Source: Caryophanales bacterium UBA4856
Lineage (GTDB): Bacteria > Bacillota_I > Bacilli_A > RFN20 > CAG-288
Length of the DNA stretch: 36,105 nt
Reading direction: 5' to 3'
NCBI GenBank assembly: GCA_002399765.1
Contig: DHEG01000003.1
Span: 17,930-54,034 of the forward strand
A model generated the notes under the pieces. The model did not search any database. It was not told where the DNA came from and saw nothing but the letters and a program-made list of their open reading frames with translations. How positions within the stretch are numbered: position 1 is the stretch's first letter; each line of letters opens with the position of its first letter. Shown here in pieces: positions 1 through 26,273 of this stretch. The translations under genes and the position numbers were made by a program.

Positions 1-2117
1 ATCTCCTGGCGCTTGAAGGAAACCGAAGTGAAGATGTAGTTCATGGTGACCAAAACCGAGACCACCGCCATCCCCAAGGCGATGTAAAGGGAGACCTTGC
101 TCAGGGTGCTCATGAGCTTGGAAAAACTATCGTCGAGATGATGGTCTGCCAATACATCCGAGACGGCAAGGCGATAGAACTTATATGAATATGTCGCTGA
201 GGCAGCGGAAGAGAGGAAGGCTTCATCGGAAGCGGTGATGGCAGACTTCTCTTTGTTTGAAATCGCGAACAGCTTACGGACGGTGGCCTTATCGGGCGTA
301 TGGACGAAGATCGCGTCATATTTGTTTAGGCTCAACGCTTCGTCGTTTTGGGGGATAGCCAAGACCTTGTCGACTATGTCGCTATCCTCGAAGGCCGAGG
401 GAGCCACGAAGACAGACCGGGCGATGCCATTGGCGAAATCGTCCAAGGCCAAGGTGTCCTTGTTCAGCGTATCGGCGCTTTCGCTCCCATAGATCTCTTC
501 GGCATAGTCCTTGTCAAAGCCGGTGTCGACAAGACCGGTTATCCTGAAGGGGCTTACCGAATCGTCAACGGCAAGGTCAATTCTTTGACCTTCCAGATCG
601 GCGAATCCGTTTACATCCTCGCTGGTCCCATCGGACAGGACGATCCCATTGTTCTCAAGCATCGCCAACTGATAATCGGTGATGGCAATGTCATAAGCGT
701 CCTGGGGGAGGGTCCCCTCCAAAAGGCTCAAGCCGGCCTCATCGCCTTCAAAGGCCACGAAACCCGATGGGGTGGCATCGTAAAGACCCGAAGGAGCGTA
801 TTCGGTAGGGAACGAGGCTCCCCTGGCCTTTACCTCAGCCAGCACTTGGTCAGAGCCAAACGCATCTTGCAATTGCTTGAGGTCGTCATCGGAAAGGCTT
901 AGTTCCCCATCGCTTTCCCCATTCGCAAAATACATCTTCTTGCCAGCCACTTTCATGTACCTGTATTGATAAAGGTCGGCAATCGCGGCAAAGGTGTTGT
1001 TGATGTCATAGGTAGATAGGGTGCTGGACAACCCCAGGAAGGTGAAGCTCAGGATTGAGAGGATTATGGTCATCGCCAAGCGGAAGCGATGATGGCCCAT
1101 GGAACTTACGCCCATCTTGAATTCGACTTTCACGGGCATACGCGAATCAACACTTGCGTATTTCTCGTCACTCCCCTGTTTTTCCTTAATTGGCGACTTG
1201 GCAGTGGGCTCAAAGCCCAAGACCGGTTTGTAGATGTCTTCCTCCGTCTCGTCCTCCCGGGCTAGCCGGGCTGGGATCCGTTCCTTGCCATCGAAAAGCA
1301 CATAGGCCGGTCCTTGAATAGAGGAACCTTTGGATAGTGCGCCCAATCCTTCTTCCGAAAGCGCCCCAGCATCATCGACCCTCAATATGCCTGGGGCAAC
1401 CTCAGACACCCTTCCTGACATCCCGACCTTCCTGTCTCCCAACCCGGTAAACGTCTGGTCCCTGACCATCCGGCCATCCCTGAGGGAGATTATCCGATCG
1501 GCATACCTCTCCGCCGCTTCACGATCATGGGTCACGCATATCACGAGCCGCGTCTTTGCCAAAGCCTTCAAAAGGACGAATATCCTGTTTCCGTTGGCAT
1601 GGTCCAAGGCGCCGGTCGGCTCATCGGCAAGAATCAACTTGGGATCCTTGATCAAGGCTCTGGCGATGGCAATCCTTTGCTTTTGGCCACCGGACAGCTG
1701 ACTGGGGAAACGATCCTTTTGCTGGCTTAGGCCCACCTCTTCCAAAGATTGGCAGACCTTTTCCTCCGTGACCTTCTTTCCTTGCAATTCCAAGGCCAAT
1801 GCCACATTCTCATAAACGGTCAGACTGGGCATTACGTTATAGTCCTGAAACACGAAGCCGACATACCGGTTGCGGTAATTGTCGAAGTCTTGTGGCTTGA
1901 AAGCGCTGGAAGACTTCCCGAACAGCACCAGTTCCCCGCTGTCATAGGTATCGATTCCGCCGATGATGTTGAGCAAGGTGGATTTCCCCGATCCGGATTT
2001 CCCCAAGATGAATACAAGCCCGGCATCGGGCAAAGACAAGTTGATGTCTCGCAATGCCTGGACCTGTTCAGTCCCTTTCAACCTATAGGATTTGCAAAGG
2101 TTTTTCGCTTCGATCAT
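1..2117 (-). CDS. ABC transporter ATPase-permease fusion (FtsX/MacB type), 3' end outside window
   Basis: The frame opens at an ATG at 2117 and runs without a stop off the left edge, giving about 705 residues. The N-terminal ATPase has Walker A GKSGSGKST near residues 39-47, a Q-loop in FVFQDYNV, the signature LSGGQKQRIAIARAL, Walker B with LILADEPTGALD, and an H-loop in CVTHD. A linker with an internal stretch of acidic residues leads to a first membrane helix (about residue 350, RLAMTIILSILSFTFLG). A roughly 300-residue extracytoplasmic domain follows, then a second helix ending MNYIFTSVSFKRQE, which is where FtsX permeases normally continue into a K-R-E-I-G-I-L-R-like motif. Single-chain ATPase-FtsX transporters usually export or sense peptides, antibiotics or lipids; the substrate here is unknown. 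The ribosome-binding site is weak (AAGAGAG, then AGGAA next to the ATG). The assignment to the family is secure, the role is not. Confidence 0.9.
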   Translation of the reverse strand, partial: MIEAKNLCKSYRLKGTEQVQALRDINLSLPDAGLVFILGKSGSGKSTLLNIIGGIDTYDSGELVLFGKSSSAFKPQDFDNYRNRYVGFVFQDYNVMPSLTVYENVALALELQGKKVTEEKVCQSLEEVGLSQQKDRFPSQLSGGQKQRIAIARALIKDPKLILADEPTGALDHANGNRIFVLLKALAKTRLVICVTHDREAAERYADRIISLRDGRMVRDQTFTGLGDRKVGMSGRVSEVAPGILRVDDAGALSEEGLGALSKGSSIQGPAYVLFDGKERIPARLAREDETEEDIYKPVLGFEPTAKSPIKEKQGSDEKYASVDSRMPVKVEFKMGVSSMGHHRFRLAMTIILSILSFTFLGLSSTLSTYDINNTFAAIADLYQYRYMKVAGKKMYFANGESDGELSLSDDDLKQLQDAFGSDQVLAEVKARGASFPTEYAPSGLYDATPSGFVAFEGDEAGLSLLEGTLPQDAYDIAITDYQLAMLENNGIVLSDGTSEDVNGFADLEGQRIDLAVDDSVSPFRITGLVDTGFDKDYAEEIYGSESADTLNKDTLALDDFANGIARSVFVAPSAFEDSDIVDKVLAIPQNDEALSLNKYDAIFVHTPDKATVRKLFAISNKEKSAITASDEAFLSSAASATYSYKFYRLAVSDVLADHHLDDSFSKLMSTLSKVSLYIALGMAVVSVLVTMNYIFTSVSFKRQE

Positions 2118-2251
2118 TTCCTGGCTCTCTTAGATATGACTTCCGGACAATAATAGCATTACCAAATAATAAAATTGCCAATATTGCAAAATTCAGCATT
2201 CGTTTAATTTTTACAACTCTTTTTGGGAATAACTGTTCAGTCTTTTAACAT

Positions 2252-2280
2252 TTGACATAAAGCCAAATAAACAATAATGT
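2252..2280 (+). promoter_or_regulatory. Candidate promoter for the lipoprotein gene
   Basis: A perfect TTGACA lies at 2252-2257 and a poor -10 (TAATGT) 17 bases later at 2275-2280, in the AT-rich gap between two divergent genes. Transcription would start only a few bases before the likely ATG, so the mRNA would be almost leaderless. This agrees with the lack of any visible Shine-Dalgarno sequence. The weak -10 keeps confidence low. Confidence 0.25.
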
Positions 2281-2284
2281 CTTG

Positions 2285-3406
2285 ATGATCAAAATGACAC
2301 AGAAAGAAAACAAATCATTGCTGGTTTTGGCTATGGTCGCCATTTCCCTGACTTCTTGTGGCGGGAGTACGCTTTCCATCTCGAACGCTTCTTCCAGTTC
2401 CTCCTCGGTTTCAAGTTCCACCACTGATTCGTCTTCGTCGGTAGACGAAGACCTAATCGACCCATTCCCCGTAAATTTCGTCAGGATGAGCGCCCCAACG
2501 GACTATGAGGGTACCACGCCCTGGGAAGCGTGGAAGACCTTGAGCGACACCAAGGATATCTATTTCCTCATGGATCACAAGATGGGCAATTCCAATTCAT
2601 ACGATGTCGGGTACGGAAAGGTGGACGTCACATATCCGTCCTTGGGCTCTATGGAAGTCTACTCCCAGGATGTCTATACCTTAGGAATATCGGAAGGGAC
2701 TTCCACCTATACCCAGTTCGTTACCAAGGGACAGGTTTTCGGGGACCTCTTGAGTTTCACCGTCAACGGGGCTTCCCGCCAAGTGGAGGACGTAGTCGAC
2801 AAGACCTACAAGACCATCGATTCGAAAACCACAGATGCCTCCGATTTCTCCATCGATGGCACAGGCCTGGATGCTGCGGCGACAGTGAGCGCTTGGGACT
2901 CGCCAAAGTCCTACAAAGATCGCAGTTCGTTTCTGGAAGTGACAGGGCACGACCTTTTCGAACTGACCAATTACTACGTACCCGATACCTCGGCGATACT
3001 CGACGTGGAGGTATCAAGGCTCGGCGAAGACGAGAACGAGGTCGACATGACTTTCTCTACCAACGACGAGGGCGGCAAGACCGATGCCTCGACTTGGTAT
3101 GCCAAAGAGCAGTCCGTCATCCTAGGGGCCACGATCGACTCAGACACCGCAAGGATAACCATCGCCATCAACTCCTTGGCGGTCAAGTTCTATGTCGACG
3201 ATGACTGGAACATTACCAAGACCGAAACAAGCGAGAGCTACACTGCAAACGTCTTTATCGGCAGCAGCACCAATCCCATATCCCTAGACATAACCAACGA
3301 GATGACCACCCTTTTCACCGTCTTCGAAAACGAGAGCGACATCGCTGACAAAAGGGTATGGGATTTCTATGACGAGACCCGTTCCCAGATAGGAAAAGAC
3401 GAATAG
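2285..3406 (+). CDS. Serine-rich putative lipoprotein of unknown function
   Basis: The protein is about 373 residues. It has a basic start (MIKMTQKENK), a hydrophobic stretch (SLLVLAMVAISL) and a lipobox LTSC followed by GG, so it should be lipidated at Cys25 and anchored outside the cytoplasmic membrane. A low-complexity Ser/Thr spacer (about residues 28-55) follows, as is common in Gram-positive lipoproteins. The rest is an acidic, beta-rich-looking domain that I do not recognise (DFSIDGTGLDAA, WYAKEQSVILGA, YTANVFIGSSTNPISL). No Shine-Dalgarno is visible for the ATG at 2285, for the ATG at 2294, or for the upstream TTG at 2282, so the exact start is uncertain. It diverges from the ABC transporter, and a role as its substrate-binding partner is possible but unsupported. 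degV follows after 42 bases. Confidence 0.75.
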   Translation: MIKMTQKENKSLLVLAMVAISLTSCGGSTLSISNASSSSSSVSSSTTDSSSSVDEDLIDPFPVNFVRMSAPTDYEGTTPWEAWKTLSDTKDIYFLMDHKMGNSNSYDVGYGKVDVTYPSLGSMEVYSQDVYTLGISEGTSTYTQFVTKGQVFGDLLSFTVNGASRQVEDVVDKTYKTIDSKTTDASDFSIDGTGLDAAATVSAWDSPKSYKDRSSFLEVTGHDLFELTNYYVPDTSAILDVEVSRLGEDENEVDMTFSTNDEGGKTDASTWYAKEQSVILGATIDSDTARITIAINSLAVKFYVDDDWNITKTETSESYTANVFIGSSTNPISLDITNEMTTLFTVFENESDIADKRVWDFYDETRSQIGKDE

Positions 3407-8306: not shown

Positions 8307-9284
8307 TCAAATGTATTCCTCGGCGGCCTTCTTAAGGCCAAGCATCACCCCATTTGGCATATCGGATGCCAGATGGATCGGCATCTTCAGCTCCTTCTCC
8401 AGGAAAACCTTCATCCCCCCGATAAGGGCTCCCCCACCTGTGACCAAAACGCCAGACTTCACCAAATCGGAAGCCAATTCGGGCTTCACGTCCTGTAGCA
8501 CTTCTTCGGTCATGTCGGCAATCTCTTCGGCGAGAGGTATCAAGATAGGCCTGAGCTCGGCCGTGGAAAGGATTGCGGAGGAGGGCAATCCCGTGACGAC
8601 ATCCCGACCGGATACCTCCAAAAACTGATTCTCGGCCCCGGTATCGACAGAGCCGATACGCATCTTGGCCATCTCGGAAGTGACCGGTCCGATGGCCAGG
8701 TTCTTGTTGTTCTTGGCAAAGCGCTCGATCGCCCTGTCGAAACTCCTGCCACCGACCTTGGCCGAACGGGCCGCGGCGATATCGCCTAACGCGATGGCAC
8801 CGCAATCGGAAATCCCACCGCCTATGTCCAGGACCAAAACACCTTTGGGGGAAGACATGTCGACACCCGCGCCCAAGGCGGCCATCTTGGCGGACGACTC
8901 GATGATTATCCTCCTGGCACCCAGGTTCTTGATGACATCCAAGAGAGCATCCCTTTCGACCGTGGTCATCTGGTTTGGAGCCGAAGCCAGGACAGTCGAG
9001 CCCCTCAGGGCCCTATGCAGCTTGAGGTTTATGAAGACCTGGCTTATGAAGCGGACGCATAGCTCCACATCGGCCACAACACCCGCCTGGACCGGGTCGA
9101 AGACCTTGATGTCATAAGGGCTCCTGCCGATGGCCTTGCTGGCCAAATAGCCGATCTCGGCCACCTTCCCGGTCCGGCTATCGATGGCGATGGCCGTTGG
9201 CTCGTCAAAGACATTCCCACGCGAAGAAAGCCAGATGCGAGTCATGGATGTGCCCAAATCAATGCAGATGACTTTTGCCGCCAT
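8307..9284 (-). CDS. mreB: MreB-like bacterial actin with altered catalytic residues
   Basis: At 325 residues this is a normal-length MreB/Mbl actin, expected to form filaments under the membrane and guide cell-wall synthesis or shape. The phosphate-1 loop is CIDLGTSMTRIW, phosphate-2 is LVLDIGGGISDC (about 150-161), and the adenosine motif VLVTGGGALIGGM is intact. Two positions differ from canonical MreB. The segment normally I-E-E-P-M-A-A-A reads IESSAKMAA, so the catalytic Glu (E. coli Glu143) is Ser. The usual GGG-T-T-E is GGG-I-S-D. These changes predict weak ATP hydrolysis, as known for some Spiroplasma MreB paralogues. It is the first gene of an apparent mreB-yqeY-GNAT operon with its own TATAAT (9311-9316). 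A non-MreB actin-like protein is possible but less likely. Confidence 0.88.
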   Translation of the reverse strand: MAAKVICIDLGTSMTRIWLSSRGNVFDEPTAIAIDSRTGKVAEIGYLASKAIGRSPYDIKVFDPVQAGVVADVELCVRFISQVFINLKLHRALRGSTVLASAPNQMTTVERDALLDVIKNLGARRIIIESSAKMAALGAGVDMSSPKGVLVLDIGGGISDCGAIALGDIAAARSAKVGGRSFDRAIERFAKNNKNLAIGPVTSEMAKMRIGSVDTGAENQFLEVSGRDVVTGLPSSAILSTAELRPILIPLAEEIADMTEEVLQDVKPELASDLVKSGVLVTGGGALIGGMKVFLEKELKMPIHLASDMPNGVMLGLKKAAEEYI

Positions 9285-9317: not shown

Positions 9318-9338
9318 CAAATAGATAAAGACTATTTG
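9318..9338. repeat. Inverted repeat between typA and mreB
   Basis: CAAATAG (9318-9324) and CTATTTG (9332-9338) form a perfect seven-base inverted repeat around ATAAAGA. It covers the typA stop codon and lies immediately upstream of the mreB -10, in the -35 zone. It could be an operator or a weak terminator; there is no T-tract of note. Confidence 0.4.
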
Positions 9339-11173
9339 CTAAGCCCGTACTCTTCCGGATGGTGGGCTTCGTACTTCTTGCGGGCATTTGTATCCAAGAT
9401 CTTCTTGCGCATGCGGATGTTCTTAGGGGTTACCTCGACCAACTCATCGTTGTTGATGTAGTCCAAAGCCTCCTCCAAAGACATCTTCCTGGGAGCCTTC
9501 AAGACAATCGTCTGATCCTTGTTGGAATTGCGCTCGTTGTTCAAGGGCATCCCCTCGGTAACGTTGACAGCCATGTCGCGGGGGAACTTGTTCTCCCCGA
9601 TTATCATTCCCTCGTATACCTCAGTGCCAGGAACAATGAACATGGTCCCCCGTTCCTCGATGTGCTTAAGGGCATAGGAAGTGGCCTTGCCAGCGTTCAC
9701 GGAGACCAATACGCCTTGCTGTCTCCTGCCGATCGTTCCTTTGACCACAGGGCGGTATTCCTTGAATGAGTGGTTGATTATGCCATAGCCACGGGTGATG
9801 GTCATGAAAGTGGTCATGAAGGAGATCAGGCCACGGGTGGGGATTATGTAGTTCAGACGGGTCTGGCCATTGTTGGAATCCATGTTGACCATCGTGGCCG
9901 AACGGGTGCCGACCAGATTCATGACCGGTCCGACATATTCATCAGGCACGTCGATCTGCAGATCCTCGAAAGGCTCGCACTTGACGCCGTTTATTTCCTC
10001 GACGATGACGTCGGGCTTTGAGACCTCAAGCTCAAAGCCTTCACGCCTGAGGGTCTCGATCAATACCGACAGATGCAACTCGCCGCGTCCACTGACCAAG
10101 AACGACTCGGAAGCGGGTTGGGCCACATATTTCAAGGATACGTCGCTTTGGGTCTCCCTGAACAGCCTGTCGCCAAGCTTGGCCGCCGTGACGAACTTGC
10201 CTTCATTGCCGGCGAAGGGGCTTTGGTTGGCCGAGAACGTCATCTGCAATGTAGGCGGATCGATTCTCAGCAAAGGCAACCTCTGGACATGGTCGGGCGT
10301 GCAGAGGGTCTCGCCGACCTCGATGTCAGGCAAACCACCGATGGCACAGATCTCTCCGGATTGGGCGACGGGAATCTCGATCCTGGACATACCGACATAT
10401 CCGTAAAGCTTTTGGACCCTGAAGTTCTTCTGGGAACCATCCAGCCTCACGCAGGTCAAAAGATCGCCAGGCTTGACCTGACCGGTCTCGATGCGGCCGA
10501 TCCCGATACGGCCGATGTAGTCGTTGTAGTCGAGCATGGAAGGCTGGAACAGGAACGGAGCCTCAACATTGATCTTAGGAGACGGGATCTCCTTGACGAT
10601 GGTGTCCAAAACCGGAGCCATGGTCGGCTGCTGGGTCGAAAGATCGCGGGAAAAGGAGGAGGTGCCTTTCAAGGCCGAGCAATAGACGATCTTGTAATCG
10701 AGCTGCTTGTCATCGGCTCCCAAATCCATGAAGAGCTGGAGAATCTCGTCCTCGGTCTTCTTGATGTCGGCATTGGGCCTATCGACCTTGTTGATCACGA
10801 CGACGATCTTTAGTTTGTACTCCAAGGCGGTCTTCAGGACAAACCGGGTCTGGGGCATGACGCCATCAAAGGCATCGACCACCAAAACGGCGCCATCGAC
10901 CATGTTCATGATTCTCTCGACCTCGCCGCCAAAGTCAGCATGGCCCGGGGTATCGAGAATGTTTATGGTCGTTCCCTTGTAGTCGATCGAGGTCGTCTTC
11001 GCCAGAATAGTAATCCCGCGCTCGTGTTCGATGGGGTTGGAATCCATCATCGCGATGTCACCGGACTGGGGCATTGCCACGGTACCGGTCCAGGTCAATA
11101 GCCGTCCTACCAAAGTGGTCTTTCCGTGATCGACATGCGCGATAATCGCGACGTTCCTAATCTGCTTATCCAT
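9332..11173 (-). CDS. typA: Translational GTPase TypA/BipA
   Basis: At 613 residues this is full length for TypA, a ribosome-binding GTPase related to EF-G and LepA that helps ribosome assembly and stress or cold adaptation. The GTPase domain has AHVDHGKTTL (G1), RGITILAKTT (G2), DTPGHADFGGEV (G3), NKVDRPNAD (G4) and CSALKG (G5). An EF-Tu domain-2-like barrel, an EF-G domain-III/V-like region and the TypA-specific C-terminal domain (RNIRMRKKILD near the end) follow. A good promoter lies at 11244-11273 and GGGAGAG sits about nine bases before the ATG. The gene is followed by mreB on the same strand. Confidence 0.97.
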   Translation of the reverse strand: MDKQIRNVAIIAHVDHGKTTLVGRLLTWTGTVAMPQSGDIAMMDSNPIEHERGITILAKTTSIDYKGTTINILDTPGHADFGGEVERIMNMVDGAVLVVDAFDGVMPQTRFVLKTALEYKLKIVVVINKVDRPNADIKKTEDEILQLFMDLGADDKQLDYKIVYCSALKGTSSFSRDLSTQQPTMAPVLDTIVKEIPSPKINVEAPFLFQPSMLDYNDYIGRIGIGRIETGQVKPGDLLTCVRLDGSQKNFRVQKLYGYVGMSRIEIPVAQSGEICAIGGLPDIEVGETLCTPDHVQRLPLLRIDPPTLQMTFSANQSPFAGNEGKFVTAAKLGDRLFRETQSDVSLKYVAQPASESFLVSGRGELHLSVLIETLRREGFELEVSKPDVIVEEINGVKCEPFEDLQIDVPDEYVGPVMNLVGTRSATMVNMDSNNGQTRLNYIIPTRGLISFMTTFMTITRGYGIINHSFKEYRPVVKGTIGRRQQGVLVSVNAGKATSYALKHIEERGTMFIVPGTEVYEGMIIGENKFPRDMAVNVTEGMPLNNERNSNKDQTIVLKAPRKMSLEEALDYINNDELVEVTPKNIRMRKKILDTNARKKYEAHHPEEYGLSK

Positions 11174-11353: not shown

Positions 11354-11491
11354 CTAAAGGAGATAGGACAAAGAGAAGGCGATGGCAATTATCAGGACCA
11401 CGGCCAACAAAAGGGTAGTCCCGATAAGGAATAGCTTCGTGAATGCCGCCAGATGGGTATCATCCAGCCGCTCCTCTTTCTTGTTTGCCAT
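11354..11491 (-). CDS. 45-residue single-helix membrane peptide
   Basis: This small gene encodes a charged N-terminus (MANKKEERLDDTHLAAFTK) followed by one membrane helix (LFLIGTTLLLAVVLIIAIAF) and the end SLSYLL. The orientation should be N-terminus inside. AAAGGGGA, overlapping the end of the upstream 1411-residue gene, lies about nine bases before the ATG, and only five bases separate the stop from the start. Translation is therefore probably coupled and the two products made together. A terminator follows 24 bases downstream. I recognise no family. The tight coupling suggests an accessory subunit of the large membrane protein, by inference only. Confidence 0.72.
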   Translation of the reverse strand: MANKKEERLDDTHLAAFTKLFLIGTTLLLAVVLIIAIAFSLSYLL

Positions 11492-11496
11492 TTACT

Positions 11497-14400
11497 TCAT
11501 TCCCCTTTCTTTTTGCTTTCTTTCTTGAGTTGAGACAACGGCTTGACCGGAGTGATGGGCTTGATGGTTGCAGCAGGCTTAATGGGAGCCAAAGGCACCA
11601 GCGGCTTTACGATGGGTCTGCCTTCGGGTTCCTTGGCCTTTTCCTCTGCCGGCTTCTCTTCCTTCTTCATGGTTACAGGCACGATTGGAGTAATGGGGGC
11701 AACGGGCGTGGGAACGACGGTGGGGGAGGGGGCATTCGCGACTTGTGCGGCCTTTTCCCTCTCCCATTGCCTCTTGGCCTTCTTCCATTCACGGATGGAG
11801 GGGAATGCGGTAACGGGCTTATCGAACTTCTCGCTAGCCACAGGCGCTGTCGGAGTGACGACCGCCGTGGCGACTACATACCCGGTCCGTCTAGCACGCT
11901 GCTTGGCGGCCTTCTCCTTGCGAGCGGCGAACACATCCACGGGTTTGGTCTGGCCGGCAAAGACCGGCGAAACGACGATCTCCTGGTTGGTGATGGCCTT
12001 GTTGAACGCCTCTTCGGGAGTCAAGGCACCCTTGTAGCCACCCGATACCTTCTTGAGCTGGAACCACACATGGCGAGCCTGGACGGGCTTGATCTCCACG
12101 GGCTTTGCGTTCTGTATGGCATGCTGAAGCGTGACCGGGCCAAGATGACGTTCTTCAGCGCCGGCACTCTCCGGCTTCTCTTCCTCATGCTTGATGGGTG
12201 CGACGGGAGCGATGGGCTTGACTGGCGCGATGGGCACGACGGGGGTAACCTTTTCGCCTTCTGTGGTTTCCTCTTCGCTGACAGGTGATATCGGCTTGGC
12301 GCGAACACCCTCTTGGACATTTCCATACCAGTAGTCAGGCGTCTTGTCGGAAGGACGGTTAGTCAAGACGGGCGCAGTGGCAACAGGCGCGATAGGCGAA
12401 CCGCTGGTGGTCTCCCCAACGCCATGTGCCACCTTGGCCGTAACCTGGGCCTTCTCGATTTCGGGTGAAATGGTCTTGATGGGGGCGTTTCCCGGAGTCC
12501 AATTGCCGGTGGGCAAAGAAGCATTGGAGGGTATGCCGTTGGTGGCAAGGAAGCCCTGATAGGCCCTTCCATAAAGCACTTCGCCGGAAGGATGGGTCTC
12601 GACCTGCTTGCCTTGGTTGGCCTTGACCGCAAGCGTCTCTTTGGCTCCTTCGTACCAAAATGCAGCAGGCTGTTCGGAAGGGATGACTATGGGGGCGATG
12701 GCAACGGGTGCTACAGGTTCACCGGCAGAAACCGATGCGACTTTCTCCACGAAAGCCACGACGGGTGCTTTCTCCGAAACGGGGACGACGGGACCCACGA
12801 CGGGCGAAACGACGATAGGTTCTGCCCCGGCATTGGAATACCAATAATCGGGAGTCTTGTCGGATGCCCTGTTTGCAAACACCGGAGCCTGGGCAACTGC
12901 CGGAATCTCGGGTCCTTTCGCCAAAGCGGAGATGGAAGCGCTGGAAATGGCAGTGATCGTCTCCAAGGGCTTGGGATAAGAGCCGGACACGACCTGGTGA
13001 GGAAGGAAGCCTTGATAGACGTGGCCGTATTGAACTTGCCCGGAAGGACGGGTCTCGACTTGGGTGCCAAAGGCCTTGGCAACATTGGCTTCCTCGACGG
13101 CCCCACCATACCAGAACGCCGCAGGCTGTTCTGAAGGAACGACGATCGGGGCGACTGGAACAGGTTCGGCAGGAGCGACCTCAACGGCGATCGGAGCAAC
13201 AACGACCGGCTTGACACCGACGCCAACGAACCAGTAGTCAGGCGTCTTGTCGGAAGGACGGTTGCTGAATACAGGCGCTACCGCCACCGGAGGAATTGCT
13301 TCGGAAGGTGTTTCTTTGATGGCTTCAAGAGTGGCGGGAGTCACCGGCTTAAAAGCTGACGCTTCTTCACCCTGAAGCACTATTCCAGATACGACCTGAC
13401 GGGGCAAGAAGCCCTGATAGACATTCCCATACAGGACTTGGCCGGAAGGCCGGGTCTCGACCTGGCTACCGGCGACCTTGGAAACGGTCACCTCTTCTAC
13501 GGCATTGGCAAACCAGAACGCAACCGGTTGTTCGGAAGGAACGACCACTGGGCGAACCGCAACGGGCGCAATCACTGCCGGAGCAATGGGCGTTGCCGGC
13601 TTTGCCATAGCCACGGGTGCTGCGACAGGAGCGGCAATCACGGGCTTTGCACCCGCTCCCAGATACCAATAGTCAGGCGTCTTGTCGGAAGGACGGCTTG
13701 CGAAAATCGGGGCTAAGGCAACAGGAGGGATGGCTTCGCCTTCCGCTTCGGGCACTATTAGACCCGATGCCACTACCTGAGGTTTGCCACCGACGTTGAC
13801 TACCTGGACATAGTTGGGAACCGATCCTTGAGGCAAAGCCTTCCCAACGACAAGTCCCTGATAGGCTCTCCCATAGGCCTGACCGTATGGATGCGTCTTT
13901 ACCTGGTTACCGGCAGCCTTGATGACATTGACTTCCTCTACCGCACCGGCAAACCAGAAGGATACCGGTTGCTTTGAAGGCACGACAACGGGTTCGGCCA
14001 AAGCGGCGGCTTGGGTTTCGACACCTATGGGCAAGCCACTGGCCTCGACGCTAGCCTGTCCATACCAGGCCTCGGGGATATTGTCGGCAGGTGTCAGGAC
14101 GGGTTTGGGTTGGGCGAGCGCGAATTCGTTCTCGGCTTCCGGAGCGGGGGTGAGCCTGAACGGCTCCAGGGCATTTGCCAATCTTTCGTAAAGGTCCGTA
14201 TAGGGAGCGGCGTAGGATGCGGCTTCCACTTCCTTTACGGGTTCAGAAGCGACAGGTTTGACCGCAACGGGTACGGAAACATTGCCAAACCAAAAGGCTG
14301 GCTCTTCGTCGGAAGGCTTGTTGCCAACGGTTGGGGCGAACCAATGAGAAGGTTCTTCGTCGGAAGGACGAGCCTCCTGTATGGAAGCATTGCCATACCA

Positions 14401-15732
14401 ATACTCAGGGGCCTCGTCGGACGGACGCCAAGACGCCTCGACCACGACGGGAACAGGCTGAGCAACCGGTTTGGTTTCCTTCAGGTACTCCACTGGCAAG
14501 GACTTGACCGCATCGTCCATAGAGGGGTTGAGGGCGATTATCGAAGATATGAGGGTGGGGTCGAGAAGCAAGACATCATCATCCAAGGAGGAAACGGAAT
14601 ACGAGGAAACGGATTCGCGTATGACATTTCCCTCGACGTTGAACCTGACGGGACTGATTTCCACAACACCGGTCCCGAGCGCACTTACGTCGCCTGCTCC
14701 CTGAGCGAGTTGATCGACAGGCGTGCCAGACAGGGCCACTTGATCCAAACGTGAGCCAGACGCGTCAATCTCCCCCCTCATCTCGCGGGAAGGACGCTGG
14801 ACGCCTATGGCGAAACGAGACTGGGAAACAAATACGGGCGCAAGGGTATGACCAGTGAGGTTCTCGACGTATTTGTCGCGGGCGGCCAAAGCACGCTTCT
14901 TTCCGATTGGCTTGCGGAAGAGCCAGACAAAGACAGAGCAGACCACGAGGACGAAGGTCACTATTGCAAAGAGGCCGGCGATCCACAAAAGTCCATCCAA
15001 GACGTTGGCGCAGGTGAAGTATCCCATCGCCAAGTAGATGTTCTTGAAGTTGCCGAAGAAGAAATATTCAACGTTGTCGTCGAGCCAAGCCATCGGAGTC
15101 GAGACAATGGAGGATTGGTAGATAACGCCAAGCGGGCCTACGTTGGCATTGGTGAAAATGTACCAGCCTATCCTCAACAGCAAAAGGACCAACGCGACGA
15201 AGCCGAGGACAACGCCAGTTATTATTCGTCCCACTGGCCTGCCCCCGACGTAATTGTGCCAATCGAATTCCTGGTCCAATTGGGTATCGTTCAAGCCGCC
15301 GAAATATTTGGCCTTGATGTCGGCAGGCGAACCCTTGAGCAATGCGTGCCCAAAGTTCCCTTCACGATCAACGAAAGGAACGACATATGAATTATCGTCG
15401 GCCTCAAGCGGCTTTACGGGGCTGGCGTTTTTGTTCTTGCGGGCATGGTTTATGGCAATCAGGGGCCAAATGGTCAAAAGTTGGAGGACGACAATGGCAA
15501 CAACCAATAGGATCACTCCCCAGAACTGGGTAAATGCGGGGAATGGATTGGCCCACGGCAACTTGTCAGCAAGATCTTGGTAACCGCTGAACACAACGGA
15601 AAAGAAAGTGACCTTTGTGCTTAGCCACGAATTCGCTTGCGGAATCCCAAACAGCAAACCGAATATGACGGCAACAGCCGTCAGGGCCTCAAGAACTCCG
15701 ACCCAGATCTTCCATGCTGCTTTCTTTCCCAT
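11497..15732 (-). CDS. Large four-helix membrane protein with repetitive Pro/aromatic cytoplasmic tail
   Basis: This is a 1411-residue protein of no family I recognise. Membrane helices lie at about 7-30, 71-94, 168-194 and 245-272. The basic stretch after helix 4 (FRKPIGKKRALAARDK) and the basic N-terminus place both ends in the cytoplasm, so residues 273-1411 form a long cytoplasmic tail. The tail is rich in Pro, Val and Ala and carries twelve copies of a motif like P-S-[DE]-x-x-P-x-[YFH]-W-[YF]. From about 585 to 1130 there are four long repeats of 130-155 residues, each with V-P-S-E-Q-P-x-A-F-W, an Y-Q-G-F segment and R-P-S-D-K-T-P-D-Y-W. The last 150 residues are basic. The ATG at 15732 has GGGAGGTG upstream; an upstream ATG (15795) lies almost on the predicted transcription start. 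A membrane-anchored scaffold is the best guess, compare the acidic proline-rich cytoskeletal proteins of mycoplasmas, but similarity is in style only. Confidence 0.85.
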   Translation of the reverse strand: MGKKAAWKIWVGVLEALTAVAVIFGLLFGIPQANSWLSTKVTFFSVVFSGYQDLADKLPWANPFPAFTQFWGVILLVVAIVVLQLLTIWPLIAINHARKNKNASPVKPLEADDNSYVVPFVDREGNFGHALLKGSPADIKAKYFGGLNDTQLDQEFDWHNYVGGRPVGRIITGVVLGFVALVLLLLRIGWYIFTNANVGPLGVIYQSSIVSTPMAWLDDNVEYFFFGNFKNIYLAMGYFTCANVLDGLLWIAGLFAIVTFVLVVCSVFVWLFRKPIGKKRALAARDKYVENLTGHTLAPVFVSQSRFAIGVQRPSREMRGEIDASGSRLDQVALSGTPVDQLAQGAGDVSALGTGVVEISPVRFNVEGNVIRESVSSYSVSSLDDDVLLLDPTLISSIIALNPSMDDAVKSLPVEYLKETKPVAQPVPVVVEASWRPSDEAPEYWYGNASIQEARPSDEEPSHWFAPTVGNKPSDEEPAFWFGNVSVPVAVKPVASEPVKEVEAASYAAPYTDLYERLANALEPFRLTPAPEAENEFALAQPKPVLTPADNIPEAWYGQASVEASGLPIGVETQAAALAEPVVVPSKQPVSFWFAGAVEEVNVIKAAGNQVKTHPYGQAYGRAYQGLVVGKALPQGSVPNYVQVVNVGGKPQVVASGLIVPEAEGEAIPPVALAPIFASRPSDKTPDYWYLGAGAKPVIAAPVAAPVAMAKPATPIAPAVIAPVAVRPVVVPSEQPVAFWFANAVEEVTVSKVAGSQVETRPSGQVLYGNVYQGFLPRQVVSGIVLQGEEASAFKPVTPATLEAIKETPSEAIPPVAVAPVFSNRPSDKTPDYWFVGVGVKPVVVAPIAVEVAPAEPVPVAPIVVPSEQPAAFWYGGAVEEANVAKAFGTQVETRPSGQVQYGHVYQGFLPHQVVSGSYPKPLETITAISSASISALAKGPEIPAVAQAPVFANRASDKTPDYWYSNAGAEPIVVSPVVGPVVPVSEKAPVVAFVEKVASVSAGEPVAPVAIAPIVIPSEQPAAFWYEGAKETLAVKANQGKQVETHPSGEVLYGRAYQGFLATNGIPSNASLPTGNWTPGNAPIKTISPEIEKAQVTAKVAHGVGETTSGSPIAPVATAPVLTNRPSDKTPDYWYGNVQEGVRAKPISPVSEEETTEGEKVTPVVPIAPVKPIAPVAPIKHEEEKPESAGAEERHLGPVTLQHAIQNAKPVEIKPVQARHVWFQLKKVSGGYKGALTPEEAFNKAITNQEIVVSPVFAGQTKPVDVFAARKEKAAKQRARRTGYVVATAVVTPTAPVASEKFDKPVTAFPSIREWKKAKRQWEREKAAQVANAPSPTVVPTPVAPITPIVPVTMKKEEKPAEEKAKEPEGRPIVKPLVPLAPIKPAATIKPITPVKPLSQLKKESKKKGE
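12341..14430 (-). repeat. Tandem coding repeats in the 1411-residue protein
   Basis: Four near-tandem units are anchored by P-S-x-Q-P-x-x-F-W (near 13968, 13527, 13127 and 12668) and by R-[PA]-S-D-K-T-P-D-Y-W (near 13683, 13246, 12856 and 12351). Unit spacing is about 400-460 bases. Four shorter, less regular copies of the aromatic motif precede them (near 14415, 14356, 14299 and 14082). The DNA around the motif is itself conserved (GTCTTGTCGGAAGGACGG on the plus strand recurs), so recent duplication or gene conversion is likely and copy number may vary between strains. Confidence 0.85.
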
Positions 15733-15807: not shown

Positions 15808-15836
15808 ATATTATCACCGCTCCTATGTGGTATCAA
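15808..15836 (-). promoter_or_regulatory. Promoter for the 1411-residue membrane protein
   Basis: On the minus strand TTGATA (15831-15836, five of six consensus) and TAATAT (15808-15813) are separated by 17 bases. The predicted transcription start is near 15801, giving a leader of about 68 bases to the ATG at 15732, which supports that start over the one at 15795. Confidence 0.6.
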
Positions 15837-15996: not shown

Positions 15997-17385
15997 CTAT
16001 TTCCTTAGCTTTTCGTATGGTAGTATGCGGTTGTCCTTCGTCACCGTATAGACCCTCATGTCGGGGAAATCCTTGTCAAACATGGTATCGTCGAAAATGA
16101 CGAATATGTAACCGTATTTAGGCTGAAGGGCGAGGATCAGGGAATAGAGCTCGGTCGTAAGGACGTGCTTGGTATGGAGAGCCGAGCGATCCACCAGGAC
16201 CACTTCGGGGGAATAGGCCAGAAGATAGGCGAACAGTATCTTGTAGTGGTAATCATCATTTATGAACTGCCAGATGTAGCGATTCATTATGTCTTCCGGT
16301 TCGTAGACATCCAAATCCCTCAAAAGGGTCAAGGCCCTGGAGTGGGCTTCTTTTTCGCTGCACTCGTTGGTAATCATCAAGATCTTCACAAGGTTATGGC
16401 CAATCGTCTTGTTTGGATCTACCAAGGCCTGCTTGAACTGACCCAGCAATCCGACCTTGAAATTGTTTATGGCCGCGAAAGTCTTCTTGAAATGGCCGGG
16501 GATCAAGTCGATGCTAGGCCCCTTCCTAAGCCACCGCTTGTTCCGTCTCATGGCTTTCGCCAAAGACCTGTTCCAAGGAGTAACCAGCCTGACCAAGGGG
16601 GAGCGCATCTGGAAGAAGAAGTCCTTCCAACTATCCCTGGTATCCAATGCCCTGGTCTTGGCCCAATACAGCCTCTTCAGATCCGGAGTCTGGAAATAGC
16701 GATATTCACGTTGCTCCTGGGTGCTGAAAATAGAGAGGTAGGGTTCGTTCTTCCGCTCTTGGTCAGCACACTTGCGATCCCAATCCCCCTTCAGACGCAA
16801 GAATTCCTGGCCCTGGGCGTCCTTGGTGGCAAAGAACTGCTTCTTGGCCTGGGCAAGCCTTTGATCCATCGCGGCCTGTTGCTGCGCCAAGGAATCCAGC
16901 CGCTCTTGAAGACGATTGCCGTTTCCCGCCCTTCCGCCCTTTAGGCCATAGGTTTTCTCGGCTCTTTCCACCGCCTTCCCATAATCATTCTCGCTTATCA
17001 TCTTCTGAAGTTTGGAGAGGATGACCTGATGATGCCTCAGCAGATCGGTCATGGCCTTGGTCTCCTGGGCCTTGAGGCTCCTGGCCCTGAAGCGCTTCAT
17101 TATGTGATCGTATTTTATTCGGCAGGTATAGCGCCAGTTAAGGTAGTAGGGATCGACCAGGGGCTTGCCGGTGATGACGACATTGTTGATAAGGGCGTGC
17201 TTGATTTTACGGCGGAAGCCCTTGAACGAAGGCGCATATTCGTGGACGTTGAAATGGGATTGGTAATAGAAGCAATAGACAGGTCCGGGAACCAGGACAA
17301 TGTCGCCGTCTTCGGTGCTGATGGTTATCTGAGGGCTGGGACGTCCCTGCTTAGCCCCAGTGTTGCGTGTATCCTCTTTTTCCAT
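15997..17385 (-). CDS. ABC-ATPase-like pseudoenzyme with coiled-coil insert
   Basis: This 462-residue protein is soluble and rich in basic residues. Residues about 318-455 follow the layout of the C-terminal half of an oligopeptide-type (OppF) ABC ATPase: LVDPNKTIGHNLVKILMI, EKEAHSRALTLLRDLDV, NRYIWQF, LLAYSPEVVLVDRSAL, YGYIFVIFDDT. The catalytic signatures are gone. The signature S-G-G-Q is INDDYHY, the Walker B Glu is replaced by Arg in LVDRS, the H-loop His is replaced in FDDT, and no Walker A is present. Residues about 100-240 are helical and Gln/Lys-rich, probably coiled coil. It should not hydrolyse ATP. GAGGA lies six bases before the ATG. It is upstream of, and on the same strand as, the large repeat protein. 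The homology is inferred by eye from motif order and spacing. Confidence 0.8.
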   Translation of the reverse strand: MEKEDTRNTGAKQGRPSPQITISTEDGDIVLVPGPVYCFYYQSHFNVHEYAPSFKGFRRKIKHALINNVVITGKPLVDPYYLNWRYTCRIKYDHIMKRFRARSLKAQETKAMTDLLRHHQVILSKLQKMISENDYGKAVERAEKTYGLKGGRAGNGNRLQERLDSLAQQQAAMDQRLAQAKKQFFATKDAQGQEFLRLKGDWDRKCADQERKNEPYLSIFSTQEQREYRYFQTPDLKRLYWAKTRALDTRDSWKDFFFQMRSPLVRLVTPWNRSLAKAMRRNKRWLRKGPSIDLIPGHFKKTFAAINNFKVGLLGQFKQALVDPNKTIGHNLVKILMITNECSEKEAHSRALTLLRDLDVYEPEDIMNRYIWQFINDDYHYKILFAYLLAYSPEVVLVDRSALHTKHVLTTELYSLILALQPKYGYIFVIFDDTMFDKDFPDMRVYTVTKDNRILPYEKLRK

Positions 17386-17479: not shown

Positions 17480-18217
17480 ATGAGCAAAGCATCCTTCGTA
17501 TTGTTTGATTGCTGGGATACGGTCATAACATATCGCGTTTCGAATCCTCAATGGATGGCTGAACGTCTTTTGGACAATTGCGACAATACCGAAAATCGCT
17601 CGGCCCAGGAGATAACCGAATTTTTCTTCAACCTGATGGATGAATATTACCGTACCATGAACGACTTCGATTCTTCCATCGGTCCCCTGTTGAATTACCT
17701 TTGCATCGCCATGGGCCTCAAGCCGAAGATGTCTATCGACAGGCTCCAAAGCGAAGTGCTCGAAGGCCAATACGAGCCTGAGCCTTTGCCGGGCCTCAAG
17801 GACATAATGGATTTCCTCGACCGCCATGGCATCGGCTATGCCGTTGCCTCCAATACCGTTTACGGTGCCCAAGGTACCAAGGCCCATATAGATGGCTGCT
17901 ATCCAAACAACCACTTGGCCTTCGTGATGGCCTCCAGTGAGGTGGCGGTAAAGAAGCCCAATCCCCGTTTCTTCCAAACCGCAGCCAAGATCGCAGGCAA
18001 GAAACCGGCCGATTGCATCTACATCGGTGATAACTTCTTTGCCGATGTCTTCGGCTCCCAAAGGTCGGGGTTCCATGCCTCAGTATGGTACAACCGCCGC
18101 GATGAATATCCTCCCTTTGAATATCACCATGAGATTCCCACCACTCTCAAGTATTACGAAATCCATGAATACCATGAACTTTTGCCGATATTGGAAAAGG
18201 AGCTGGCAATAAAATGA
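17480..18217 (+). CDS. HAD-superfamily hydrolase
   Basis: This 245-residue phosphatase-like protein has all four HAD motifs: I, FDCWDTVI (Asp nucleophile plus second Asp); II, ASNT; III, the Lys in VKKPNPRFF; IV, YIGDNFFADVFG with its Asp pair. A helical cap lies between motifs I and II (C1 type). Such enzymes dephosphorylate small metabolites; the substrate is not evident. AGAGGG sits about nine bases before the ATG. Its TGA overlaps the next gene's ATG (18214), so translation with the acyl-ACP thioesterase is coupled. Confidence 0.93.
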   Translation: MSKASFVLFDCWDTVITYRVSNPQWMAERLLDNCDNTENRSAQEITEFFFNLMDEYYRTMNDFDSSIGPLLNYLCIAMGLKPKMSIDRLQSEVLEGQYEPEPLPGLKDIMDFLDRHGIGYAVASNTVYGAQGTKAHIDGCYPNNHLAFVMASSEVAVKKPNPRFFQTAAKIAGKKPADCIYIGDNFFADVFGSQRSGFHASVWYNRRDEYPPFEYHHEIPTTLKYYEIHEYHELLPILEKELAIK

Positions 18218-18963
18218 GCGGCAACCAGGTATTTGCGGAAGAACATTCGCTGGAGTATTCCGATTACGACATCCATGATTTCGTCTTTCCTTCCTCATTC
18301 TTGGAGATGTTCCAGGACATCGCCGGGAACCACAGCGAAAGGCTGGGCTGCGGTTATGAGACCATGAAGGCCAAAGACCTGATGTGGATCTTGGCACGCA
18401 ACAGGTTGGATATACTGGGCAATCCCAAGGTAGCGGAGAAACTGAAGGTTACGACCATCGTGAAAAGGCCGATCGGCCTCCAGTTCGAGCGTGAGCTTGC
18501 GATAGAGGGAACAAAAAGCGGAGAGCTCTATGTCACGGGGCTTTCCGTTTGGGTCGTCTCTAATCTCAAGACCCGTCGCTTGGTGCGGCCAGCGGGCATC
18601 GCCTATCCCGATTCCTTCCCCTATAAGGAAACAAGATACCAAAAAGGCCTTCTCGCATTGCCAGAATTGGATAATGGCGGAATGAAGCCCTATGAATACA
18701 AGGTCGGATTCTCGGACCTGGATCATAACCGCCATATGAACAATTGCCGTTATGCCACTGCGCTTCTGGACGCTATATCCCCCAAGGAGGGTCAACGCCT
18801 CTCCTTCCTGGAGATCGACTACGAAAAAGAAGTCCTCGAGGGAGACACCCTTTCGATTTTCTTGGGCAAACAGGACGATGGCTCTTATCTAGCCAAGGCT
18901 TTGAGAAGCGATGGCAAGGTTTCCTTCAAGGCTTCCTTCGGCCTCACACAGGATCGGGGTTAA
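18214..18963 (+). CDS. Acyl-ACP thioesterase (double hotdog)
   Basis: This 249-residue protein has the layout of bacterial FatA-like thioesterases, which release free fatty acids from acyl carrier protein. The first hotdog starts HSLEYSDYDIHDFVFPSSF and includes MWILARNRLDI. The second starts EYKVGFSDLDHNRHMNNCRY, where the Asn/His pair is catalytic in the family, and includes EIDYEKEV. It overlaps the HAD gene by four bases. Together with DegV it points to handling of free fatty acids. It ends 14 bases from the convergent pgpA, with no obvious terminator between. Confidence 0.92.
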   Translation: MSGNQVFAEEHSLEYSDYDIHDFVFPSSFLEMFQDIAGNHSERLGCGYETMKAKDLMWILARNRLDILGNPKVAEKLKVTTIVKRPIGLQFERELAIEGTKSGELYVTGLSVWVVSNLKTRRLVRPAGIAYPDSFPYKETRYQKGLLALPELDNGGMKPYEYKVGFSDLDHNRHMNNCRYATALLDAISPKEGQRLSFLEIDYEKEVLEGDTLSIFLGKQDDGSYLAKALRSDGKVSFKASFGLTQDRG

Positions 18964-23909: not shown

Positions 23910-26273
23910 CTACCGCTTATCGCCTTCGCCAAAAGAAGAGACCAGGGACTTCAGACTATTGACCGATGCGTCATCGGTGGTGATTAGAAGGACCTCATGG
24001 CCGGAATACTTCTCAAGATGCTGGGCAATGATATCGGGACTGGCGGAGATGTTTGCCAAATCGGCTCTCCCGATGAATATTATGCCAGCCTTGCCAGCCG
24101 GATACATCCTGACTATGGCGTCCCGGAACGCATCGGAATTGATTGGACCGGAACCTGCCTTATAGGCACAGACCACCAAATCGGTCAAGCCGTGACTAAG
24201 GATATCGTCCACTTCCTTGTAGAAGGAGGAATATTCGGGTATCAAGGTGATCTTGCCGGGATTGAGGGGCTTGTAGCCGTGGAAGGGATCGGCTGTGGGG
24301 CCACTTATGTAATGGTTCTCGTAATGGGGCAACTCCTTGTGAACCAAAAGGTACTTGATCTCCTCGGCGGTAATGGTCTCCTTTTGGATCAAGGCGTTGG
24401 CGATAAGCTCCACCTGATCCTTATGGGTCGTGATGATTTCCTTGGCCTTGGCATAGCATTCCTCGATGATCTTCCGCTCGGCCTCATCGATCTCGTAGGC
24501 CACCTGGGCCGAGAAGTTGCGCTGCAGGTTGTTGTAATCCCTCCCCAGGAACACATCCTGGTTGGGGTTCTCGTATTGGATGGGGCCCAACGAACTCATG
24601 CCATATTCGGTGACCATCGAGCGGGCAATCAAAGTCGCCTTCTCGAAATCATCGGAAGCTCCGGTCGATACATCACCGAAGAACACCTCCTCAGACACCC
24701 GGCCACCGAGATAGCCGGTTATGCGCGCCAAAAGCATCTTCTTGGTATAGAGGAAACGGTCACGATCAGGAGCCATCAAGGTATGGCCACCCGTGCGGCC
24801 ACGGGGAATGATGGAAACGGACTGGACCTTGTCGGCATCAGGCAAGGTAAGGCCCACTATGGCATGGCCAGCCTCATGATAGGCGACCTGACGTTTGTCG
24901 GCATCGTCCATATGGGTCTTCTTGGCAGGGCCGGCAATGCGCCGGTCTATGGCCTCGTCGATATCCGGCATGGTGATGCGGTCGCGGTTGTTGCGCACAG
25001 CCAAGATGGCCGCCTCGTTCAAGACGTTGGCCAGATCGGCGCCCGAGAAACCCACGGTTCTTGCGGCGATGCTGTTGAAGTCGATATCGGAAGCCAAGGG
25101 CTTGTTGCGGCCATGGACCTTCAAAATGGCCGCGCGGCCCTCCCTGTCGGGAAGATCCACGGTTATGGTCCTATCGAAACGCCCTGGACGGAGCAAAGCG
25201 GGATCGAGGATGTCGGCCCTGTTCGTCGCGGCCATCACGATGACCCCGGAATTGTCTTCGAAGCCATCCATCTCCACCAAGAGTTGGTTGAGGGTCTGCT
25301 CGCGCTCGTCGTTGCCACCGCCAAGACCGGCGCCTCTCTGTCTTCCTACCGCATCTATTTCATCGATGAAGATCAAACAGGGGGCGTTCTTCTTGGCCGT
25401 GTTGAACATGTCGCGGACGCGTCCGGCACCAACGCCGACGTACATCTCCACGAAATCGGAACCGGAAATCGAATAGAAAGGCACGGAAGCCTCGCCAGCT
25501 ACCGCCTTGGCCAGAAGGGTCTTGCCGGTGCCGGGAGGGCCAACCAACAGAATGCCTTTAGGAAGCTTGGCTCCCATCTTCTTGTATTTCTCGTTGCTAT
25601 GGAAGTACTCGACTACTTCCCTGAGCTCGTTGACCACCTCATCGCAACCGGCGACATCGGAGAAGCGGACCTTGGAACTGGTCTCGCGCTTGGCCCGGGA
25701 CTGGTTGAAGCTCATGATTTGGCCCTGGCCCATGTTCATGGACCGACTCATGGCCCTCAGCAGGAACCAACCCAGCAAGGCAAAGACGACGATGTACAAA
25801 AGAGGAGAAAGCCAAGACCAAACGCTGTTGGTCGACTCGATGGTCAAGCCGGAATAGCGGGTCGAGTCGAAGTACGCGCTTCCATCGCTATTGGTGCGGG
25901 TGCTCATGACCTCAACTATCCAGTTATACTGGTTTTCGTCGAATGTGCCTTGGAAGCCCTTGGTGGTGTTGCTATCCACGTAGGTGCCGCTGACATAGTA
26001 GATGTTGTCGGATGAGGCGCTTTGCTCGATCGTAACGGTTTGGATGTCCTCGTCCTCTAGGAAGGTGGCAAACTCGCCATCGGGAACCCCGTCCCCACTG
26101 GTATCGGCCGTAATCTGGGTATTGGTGAAGGTGGTGACTTCCATGGAAGTGCTCGGCTGGATGACGGTGTAATAGAGAATCAACGTAACGGCCATAACGA
26201 AGATCAACGCCGTCAGGACCAACGACCAAACGCTGTTTCTCCTACCGCCGTTGTTACTGTTTCTTTCTGCCAT
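23910..26273 (-). CDS. ftsH: FtsH AAA+ membrane protease with extra C-terminal domain
   Basis: This 787-residue zinc protease degrades misfolded and regulatory membrane and cytosolic proteins. Membrane helices lie at about 15-37 and 152-174 with a 115-residue outside domain. Walker A GPPGTGKT is at 245-252, Walker B IFIDEID near 301, arginine fingers at 362 and 365 (LRPGRFDR), and HEAGH at 466-470 with a third zinc ligand near DDFEKAT. The normal protein would end near residue 651 ([12 protein letters not shown]). Here 136 more residues follow, with alternating strands and helices ([39 protein letters not shown]), an alpha/beta domain I do not know from FtsH. A perfect TATAAT (26317-26322) and GGAGG seven bases before the ATG support expression. 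lemA follows. Confidence 0.97.

Follow-up and report, generated by a model that had tools for sequence, protein, structure and literature searches.

A predicted membrane scaffold with repeated tryptophan motifs and its co-distribution with MreB in one order of Bacilli

Introduction

What does a bacterium do with a protein of 1411 residues that begins with four hydrophobic segments and goes on with a tail full of regularly spaced tryptophan motifs? Such a protein is encoded in the window, the stretch of 36,105 nucleotides analyzed here as a whole. From the letters alone, an initial annotation proposed a membrane-anchored, multivalent scaffold with a coupled micropeptide and named MreB, encoded nearby, as a candidate partner. 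The analysis described below asked how far the anatomy, the relatives and the distribution of the protein, called P0001, agree with this proposal.

Anatomy of the scaffold gene and its product

The gene and the parts of its product are the following.

11497..15732, minus strand: gene of P0001, the 1411-residue predicted membrane-anchored scaffold (ATG start, translation table 11; homologues by protein search)
14902..15732, minus strand: N-terminal region with four predicted membrane helices, residues 1-277 (hydropathy)
12319..14424, minus strand: tail region with 12 W-motifs, residues 437-1138 (motif count and shuffles)
12527..13992, minus strand: long repeats with a period of about 134-152 residues, each with a PS[EK]QP..FW and a [PA]SDKTPDYW motif
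11956..12093, minus strand: C-terminal motif IKPVxAxxVxFxLKxxxxxYxGxLTPEEAF..., residues 1214-1259 (alignment A4 of 15 proteins; profile in 20 of 279 genomes)
11743..11799, minus strand: SIREW/SIRDL helix near the C-terminus (alignment; the model of the relative P0005 reaches its best pLDDT here, about 73 for the block)

Hydropathy finds four segments, starting near residues 5, 63, 165 and 239, and behind them a tail of about 1136 residues, which bears out the layout first described for this minus-strand gene. Basic residues, located by eye, stand at the N-terminal end, behind helix 2, ahead of helix 3 and behind helix 4; since they flank the inward sides under the positive-inside rule, both ends of the protein and its tail should be cytoplasmic. 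The composition of the tail is strongly biased, with an abundance of Ala, Val, Pro and Glu. A structure model of P0005, built from 13 rows, places 767 of 947 residues below pLDDT 50 (mean 36.8) and gives weak support to a tail of this type that is probably disordered. Table 4 (TGA as Trp), brought up by the annotation's remark on mycoplasmas, was discarded: under table 11 the reading frame ends five bases ahead of the peptide described below, and the relatives of P0001 were translated under table 11.

The repetitive character of the tail was confirmed at both the protein and the DNA level. Twelve of its 17 tryptophans end a [PA][SA]...W[YF] motif, and the 12 occurrences of [PA][SA]x3-7W[YF] compare with 0.24 on average and at most 4 among 2000 composition shuffles. 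The long repeats are visible as a unit of 182 nt in three copies and a core of 113 nt in four, spaced by 402-456 nt and 61-73% identical in DNA to the reference copy.

Flanking elements and the 45-residue peptide

Three small features accompany the gene.

11354..11491, minus strand: 45-residue ORF with one predicted helix, beginning 5 bases past the scaffold stop codon
11306..11337, minus strand: terminator hairpin after the scaffold and the 45-residue ORF (folding energy against shuffles)
15808..15836, minus strand: promoter-like site TTGATA-17-TAATAT (consensus scan, not above chance)

The terminator placed by the annotation behind the two reading frames is well founded: the hairpin, which precedes a U-run, folds with -21.8 kcal/mol (z -3.1), a value that none of 200 shuffles equaled, although a consensus terminator scan does not list it. 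For the promoter proposed upstream, a possible site exists at 15836-15808, but the scan found 4 such sites where 2.3 +/- 1.5 are expected. The ORF of the proposed micropeptide is present at five bases and may be translated; the peptide has no match in Pfam or NCBIfam. Its only relatives found are two proteins of 45 residues with 98% and 91% identity, and inspection by eye of 400 bases downstream of each of 17 distant family members revealed nothing comparable, so that no conserved coupling was seen. A hydrophobic 30-residue ORF 22 bases after the scaffold of genome G005 was rejected as a counterpart, its start lying inside a terminator-like hairpin; several other ORFs behind distant members look like tRNA shadows. 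In G001, a genome of an uncultured Bacilli MAG, the scaffold runs off its contig.

A family without a described counterpart

P0001 has no match in Pfam, NCBIfam or the PDB. A protein search (7991 candidates scored) gave 474 homologues at E <= 0.001, and no functional name occurs among the best 120 of these 474. The earlier statement that the protein matches nothing therefore holds for known families but not for proteins in general. Full-text searches of published papers, few of them subscription ones, on MreB, wall-less Bacilli and motif scaffolds listed no title or abstract opening that describes such a family, and no publication joining RFN20 with mreB was found. By these comparisons P0001 is a member of an apparently undescribed family. 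P0001, P0004, P0005 and P0011 have in common the membrane region, the W-motifs and the C-terminal motifs RxVxFQLK, LTPEEAF, RTGY and SIREW, while whole-protein identity among relatives falls to about 30%.

A scan of named genomes gave a single locus, L001, which is part of G001. The family was then surveyed in 279 genomes from the Bacilli order to which G001 belongs, with three profiles, all run on the same genomes: A2, covering the window lineage and made without P0006, a protein that fails to align at its end; A4, the C-terminal region of 15 proteins; and A6, from eight members of a second subfamily. A further alignment, A5, was too divergent to use. Matches were obtained in 25 (A2), 20 (A4) and 30 (A6) genomes, and their union places the family in 42 of the 279. 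Four weak ones among the 30 A6 matches, all in genomes without strong MreB (G049, G231, G236 and G238; E 2e-5 to 7e-4), were left out of this count after the proteins were read; in our own reading they are an ABC transporter, a polytopic membrane protein, a GGDEF-type sensor and, in G238, a short MscL-like protein.

The members that were read have about four helices (by hydropathy for nine, by eye for the others) and a long acidic or proline-rich tail, so that an order-wide family of this build, joined by profile and synteny, was found. Over the membrane region, the window subfamily and the second subfamily align with an hhalign probability of 99.2% (E 1.1e-19, 302 columns); the C-terminal region and the gene position tie the window subfamily to the remaining members. 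Conserved short motifs occur in subsets. LTxxxAF is present in 14 and the juxtamembrane pattern G-x-G-V / D-L-G-V (by regex) in 13 of the 29 members other than the window's, both occur together only in the window's protein and in L046 and L047, and the window's protein carries these two and the W-motif. None of the short motifs recurs in every one of the 30 members read.

Database searches with other members agree with those made for P0001. Ten members had no match above a curated cut-off in Pfam and NCBIfam. Profile A4 retrieved no PDB chain and profile A6 a single one, SERBP1 (E 0.09), probably through low complexity. In one distant member (L050:9284-11569), helix 4 and the region behind it match MPN262 at 2.6e-5, with 23 bits against a cut-off of 800; this weak match may reflect chance or a distant Mycoplasma relative.

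Gene neighborhood gives a further handle on orthology.

17480..18963, plus strand: HAD hydrolase and acyl-ACP thioesterase, divergent neighbors marking orthology (synteny)

In 20 regions around members, several of them cut by contig ends, homologues of the HAD hydrolase and the thioesterase occur in 13 and ComFA in 11. Locus L001 has the gene order of the window: ComFA, ComF, PgpA, thioesterase and HAD on the other strand, scaffold. Two other proteins of the window deserve mention. Between the scaffold and the divergent neighbors lies a protein of 462 residues (15997-17385) with weak NCBIfam matches of the OppD/GsiA type (best 4.4e-6) and none in Pfam, possibly a degenerate ABC ATPase, in which the Walker-B-like stretch reads VVLVDRS. 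Further on, FtsH (23910-26273, 787 residues) has a C-terminal extension of about 145 residues, the M41 match stopping at residue 641.

Distribution together with MreB

The strongest clue to the role of the family comes from the candidate partner named in the initial annotation, whose gene lies in the window next to typA.

8307..9284, minus strand: MreB, proposed partner (Pfam MreB_Mbl, 7e-85)
9332..11173, minus strand: TypA/BipA, whose gene also adjoins mreB at 4 of the 6 other loci examined

The MreB model matches 266 of the 279 genomes, and the matches fall into two groups: 45 genomes score better than 1e-40, and the next best value is 1.6e-25. PF06723 matches of about 1e-25 and weaker were not accepted as MreB; most of the listed ones fall in ORFs of about 610 residues, which were taken for DnaK by length and score. 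Of the 45 genomes with MreB better than 1e-40, 42 contain the scaffold family, and none of the other 234 does (Fisher p about 1e-46, a value that ignores kinship). The three MreB-positive genomes that lack the family in every profile are G004, G028 and G048; for G048 an assembly gap is possible, because its close relative G052 has the family.

Kinship was partly controlled with an RpoB tree in which the window stands beside 29 genomes (30 rows; a thirtieth genome requested had no RpoB match). This tree requires four changes of MreB, at least three of them forced by starred branches, and five of the scaffold family. The G191/G193 branch, apart from the two main clades, has both MreB and the family, and G065, nested in the second clade, has neither. 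Starred branches yield three independent pairs, in which family and MreB differ in the same direction in 1.7, in opposite directions in 0 and not at all in 1.3 (average over random pairings); with only three independent pairs this test cannot reach significance. About three independent changes underlie the co-distribution.

Physical linkage adds nothing to it. The direct typA-mreB neighborhood of the window recurs in L139, L140, L141 and L143 (G001, G005, G013 and G004), the two genes are about 5 kb apart in G018 (L142), and no typA match was seen in L144; no scaffold match was found near mreB in any of these six loci. Because mreB adjoins typA elsewhere and L139-L144 contain no scaffold match, the proximity of scaffold and mreB in the window was rejected as evidence.

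It is a real possibility, to be taken seriously, that shared ancestry explains the pattern: the scaffold could be a general membrane organizer or sensor of certain families in which MreB is merely kept too. The small number of independent changes, the underpowered pair test and the six mreB loci lacking a neighboring scaffold all suit this reading, which has more difficulty with the complete absence of the family from the 234 genomes without strong MreB and with the joint appearance of family and MreB in the separate branch G191-G194.

The MreB proteins themselves have a peculiarity. In canonical MreB the catalytic glutamate stands in a T-T-E sequence. In the seven aligned MreBs, from the window and L139-L144, this place is always occupied by D or N (ISD, TSD, TTD, ITD or STN), and these proteins may be slow or inactive ATPases. 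Spiroplasma MreB3 lacks the catalytic Glu and Thr, according to a review (PMC12372405).

Elongation machinery and the state of the wall

Models for MreC, RodZ and RodA/FtsW were searched in 70 genomes, the 45 MreB-positive ones and 25 others. MreC was found in none of the 70, while 8 of 14 control genomes matched. For the RodZ-type domain HTH_25, 22 of the 70 genomes had weak matches and two had matches above the cut-off, in ORFs of 146 and 93 residues; this model is unspecific, matching 13 of the 14 controls, archaeal ones included. RodZ and MreC may have diverged beyond the reach of these models.

RodA/FtsW was detected in 20 of the 70 genomes, 14 of the 45 MreB-positive ones and 6 of the 25 others. 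All 31 MreB-positive genomes without RodA/FtsW carry the scaffold family, compared to 11 of the 14 with it, and the three MreB-positive genomes without the family all have RodA/FtsW. Among G001-G023, the first-numbered relatives of G001, only G004 has RodA/FtsW (1 of 23), and it is without the scaffold. Single absences are not safe, because G191 and G193 lack RodA/FtsW and G192 and G194 have it. Walled and peptidoglycan-deficient families occur in several uncultured Bacilli orders, as stated by Field et al. (PMC10868615); the species of the window may be wall-less.

W-motifs inside and outside the scaffold

The tails of P0001, P0004, P0005 and P0011 contain 13, 11, 5 and 23 WY/WF pairs, respectively, one of those in P0001 belonging to the C-terminal motif; only these counts were used for the relatives, on which the motif regex overcounts overlapping matches. 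None of the 29 more distant family members scanned has the W-motif, which for this reason does not belong to the core of the family. A W-motif profile of 23 rows was run on G001 at E <= 10, with eight matches, and on 25 of the 279 genomes at E <= 0.1, with seven matches, all in G001 and none in the 24 other genomes. The carriers in G001 are the N-terminal extension of FtsY (four units), an OppF-like ATPase and a membrane protein of 423 residues with two helices and a DUF3137 match below the cut-off. A related FtsY, P0126, has seven WY; the FtsY homologue search returned the cluster of the query itself and one relative. Among the window's ORFs of at least 100 residues, only the scaffold has the motif. 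The OppD- and OppF-like ATPases of G001 (L003:3-1154 and 1120-3108) have long, highly charged insertions within the ATPase region.

Judged from these occurrences, the W-motif has the look of an element for docking or self-association, specific to the lineage and carried by several membrane-bound proteins. The annotation had seen in it the binding sites of one repeated partner. Conservation in P0001, P0004, P0005 and P0011 and recurrence in FtsY, the OppF-like ATPase and the 423-residue membrane protein are in favor of this idea, but the absence of the motif from the distant members restricts it to one lineage.

The same occurrences bear on two further explanations. The scaffold might be a hub of membrane-protein biogenesis, on which W-motifs dock the SRP receptor FtsY and the transporter ATPase to a membrane patch, with MreB incidental. 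Repeated WY units in the FtsY of two related species and in the OppF of G001 would be expected from such a hub; since the motif is missing from 29 of 29 distant members and 24 of 24 other genomes, the hub could only be a lineage-specific addition, and we regard it as improbable. Least probable is a near-neutral, low-complexity tail that grows by repeat duplication, the W-motif being a dispersed coding repeat without a partner: strong composition bias and a copy number between 5 and 23 in four relatives are what it predicts, but the motif stays fixed while repeat DNA drops to 61-73% and whole proteins to about 30% identity, and the C-terminal motif persists in part of the order.

Comparison with known systems

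RodZ consists of a cytoplasmic HTH_25 domain and one membrane helix. P0001 has no Pfam HTH_25 match and four hydrophobic segments instead, and neither P0001 nor the 10 relatives scanned have a match to MreC (PF04085). By sequence, P0001 is thus neither of these, and yet RodZ or MreC appears to be its nearest functional comparison. Like them, the family consists of membrane proteins that go with MreB (42 of 45 against 0 of 234 genomes) and for which a tie between filament and membrane is proposed; it differs from them in its four helices, its long, probably disordered tail and its occurrence in many genomes without detected RodA/FtsW. RodZ links MreB to wall synthases, according to the same review (PMC12372405).

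The mycoplasma cytoskeletal proteins to which the annotation compared the tail are alike in style and not in sequence. The EAGR-box and acidic proline-rich terminal-organelle proteins (HMW1/MG312, MG200, MG386) are likewise acidic and proline-rich, and PMC9262362 describes them as cytoskeleton-associated, with an aromatic motif common to several proteins. The scaffold family differs in its four membrane helices, in a different aromatic motif and in occurring with MreB. No EAGR-box or terminal-organelle match was found, P0001 having no Pfam or NCBIfam match and the 10 relatives only matches below the cut-off.

In Spiroplasma, MreB1, MreB5 or fibril can each give helicity to a wall-less bacterium (PMC9663586). 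The '7th protein' (SPE_1229) is membrane-attached and goes with the MreBs of a wall-less bacterium (PMC10074174); it is unlike the scaffold in being a predicted lipoprotein with a globular fold on the outside, encoded among the mreB genes. The tail, as a probably disordered region proposed to collect partners, resembles the C-terminal region of RNase E and PopZ. Both differ from the scaffold, which has a four-helix anchor and no sequence relation found to either.

A model for the scaffold

P0001 may best be explained as a scaffold that is anchored in the membrane, extends, mostly disordered, into the cytoplasm and acts together with the MreB cytoskeleton, with the W-motifs as a lineage-specific recruitment code; we give this tentative reading a probability of about 0.4. 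The multivalent membrane scaffold originally suggested is partly supported: it fits the anatomy, the low-confidence model of the tail and the separate conserved motifs.

The four helices seen in the sequence would hold the protein in the membrane, in the orientation proposed above. Behind them the family keeps G-x-G-V / D-L-G-V, LTPEEAF or both, conserved in subsets, and either the membrane region or these motifs might contact MreB filaments and link these with the membrane or with one another. RodZ and MreC/D share such a filament-tying job in walled bacteria. The long variable tail would be a flexible spacer, decorated in each lineage with recruiting motifs of its own. In the window lineage these would be the W-motifs, found as well on FtsY, the OppF-like ATPase and a small membrane protein. 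With the motif on several proteins, a single W-motif reader, or self-association, would gather them at the same membrane patch.

A bolder version, which we consider rather unlikely as a whole, extends this tentative reading to the organism: a Bacilli lineage without RodA/FtsW would keep MreB as a wall-independent skeleton, the four-helix family would replace RodZ and MreC, and the W-motif code would sort the scaffold, the SRP receptor, a peptide-transporter ATPase and another membrane protein to this skeleton.

The function and the attachments of MreB in bacteria without a normal wall have been studied mainly in Spiroplasma. An unnamed family that tracks MreB, where MreC and RodZ are undetected and RodA/FtsW often too, is a concrete candidate for an MreB partner, and its natural gene pairs with MreB are material for the study of MreB anchoring without peptidoglycan. 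A tryptophan motif that a scaffold has in common with FtsY and with a transporter ATPase would, if the reading is true, be an unusual bacterial sorting code.
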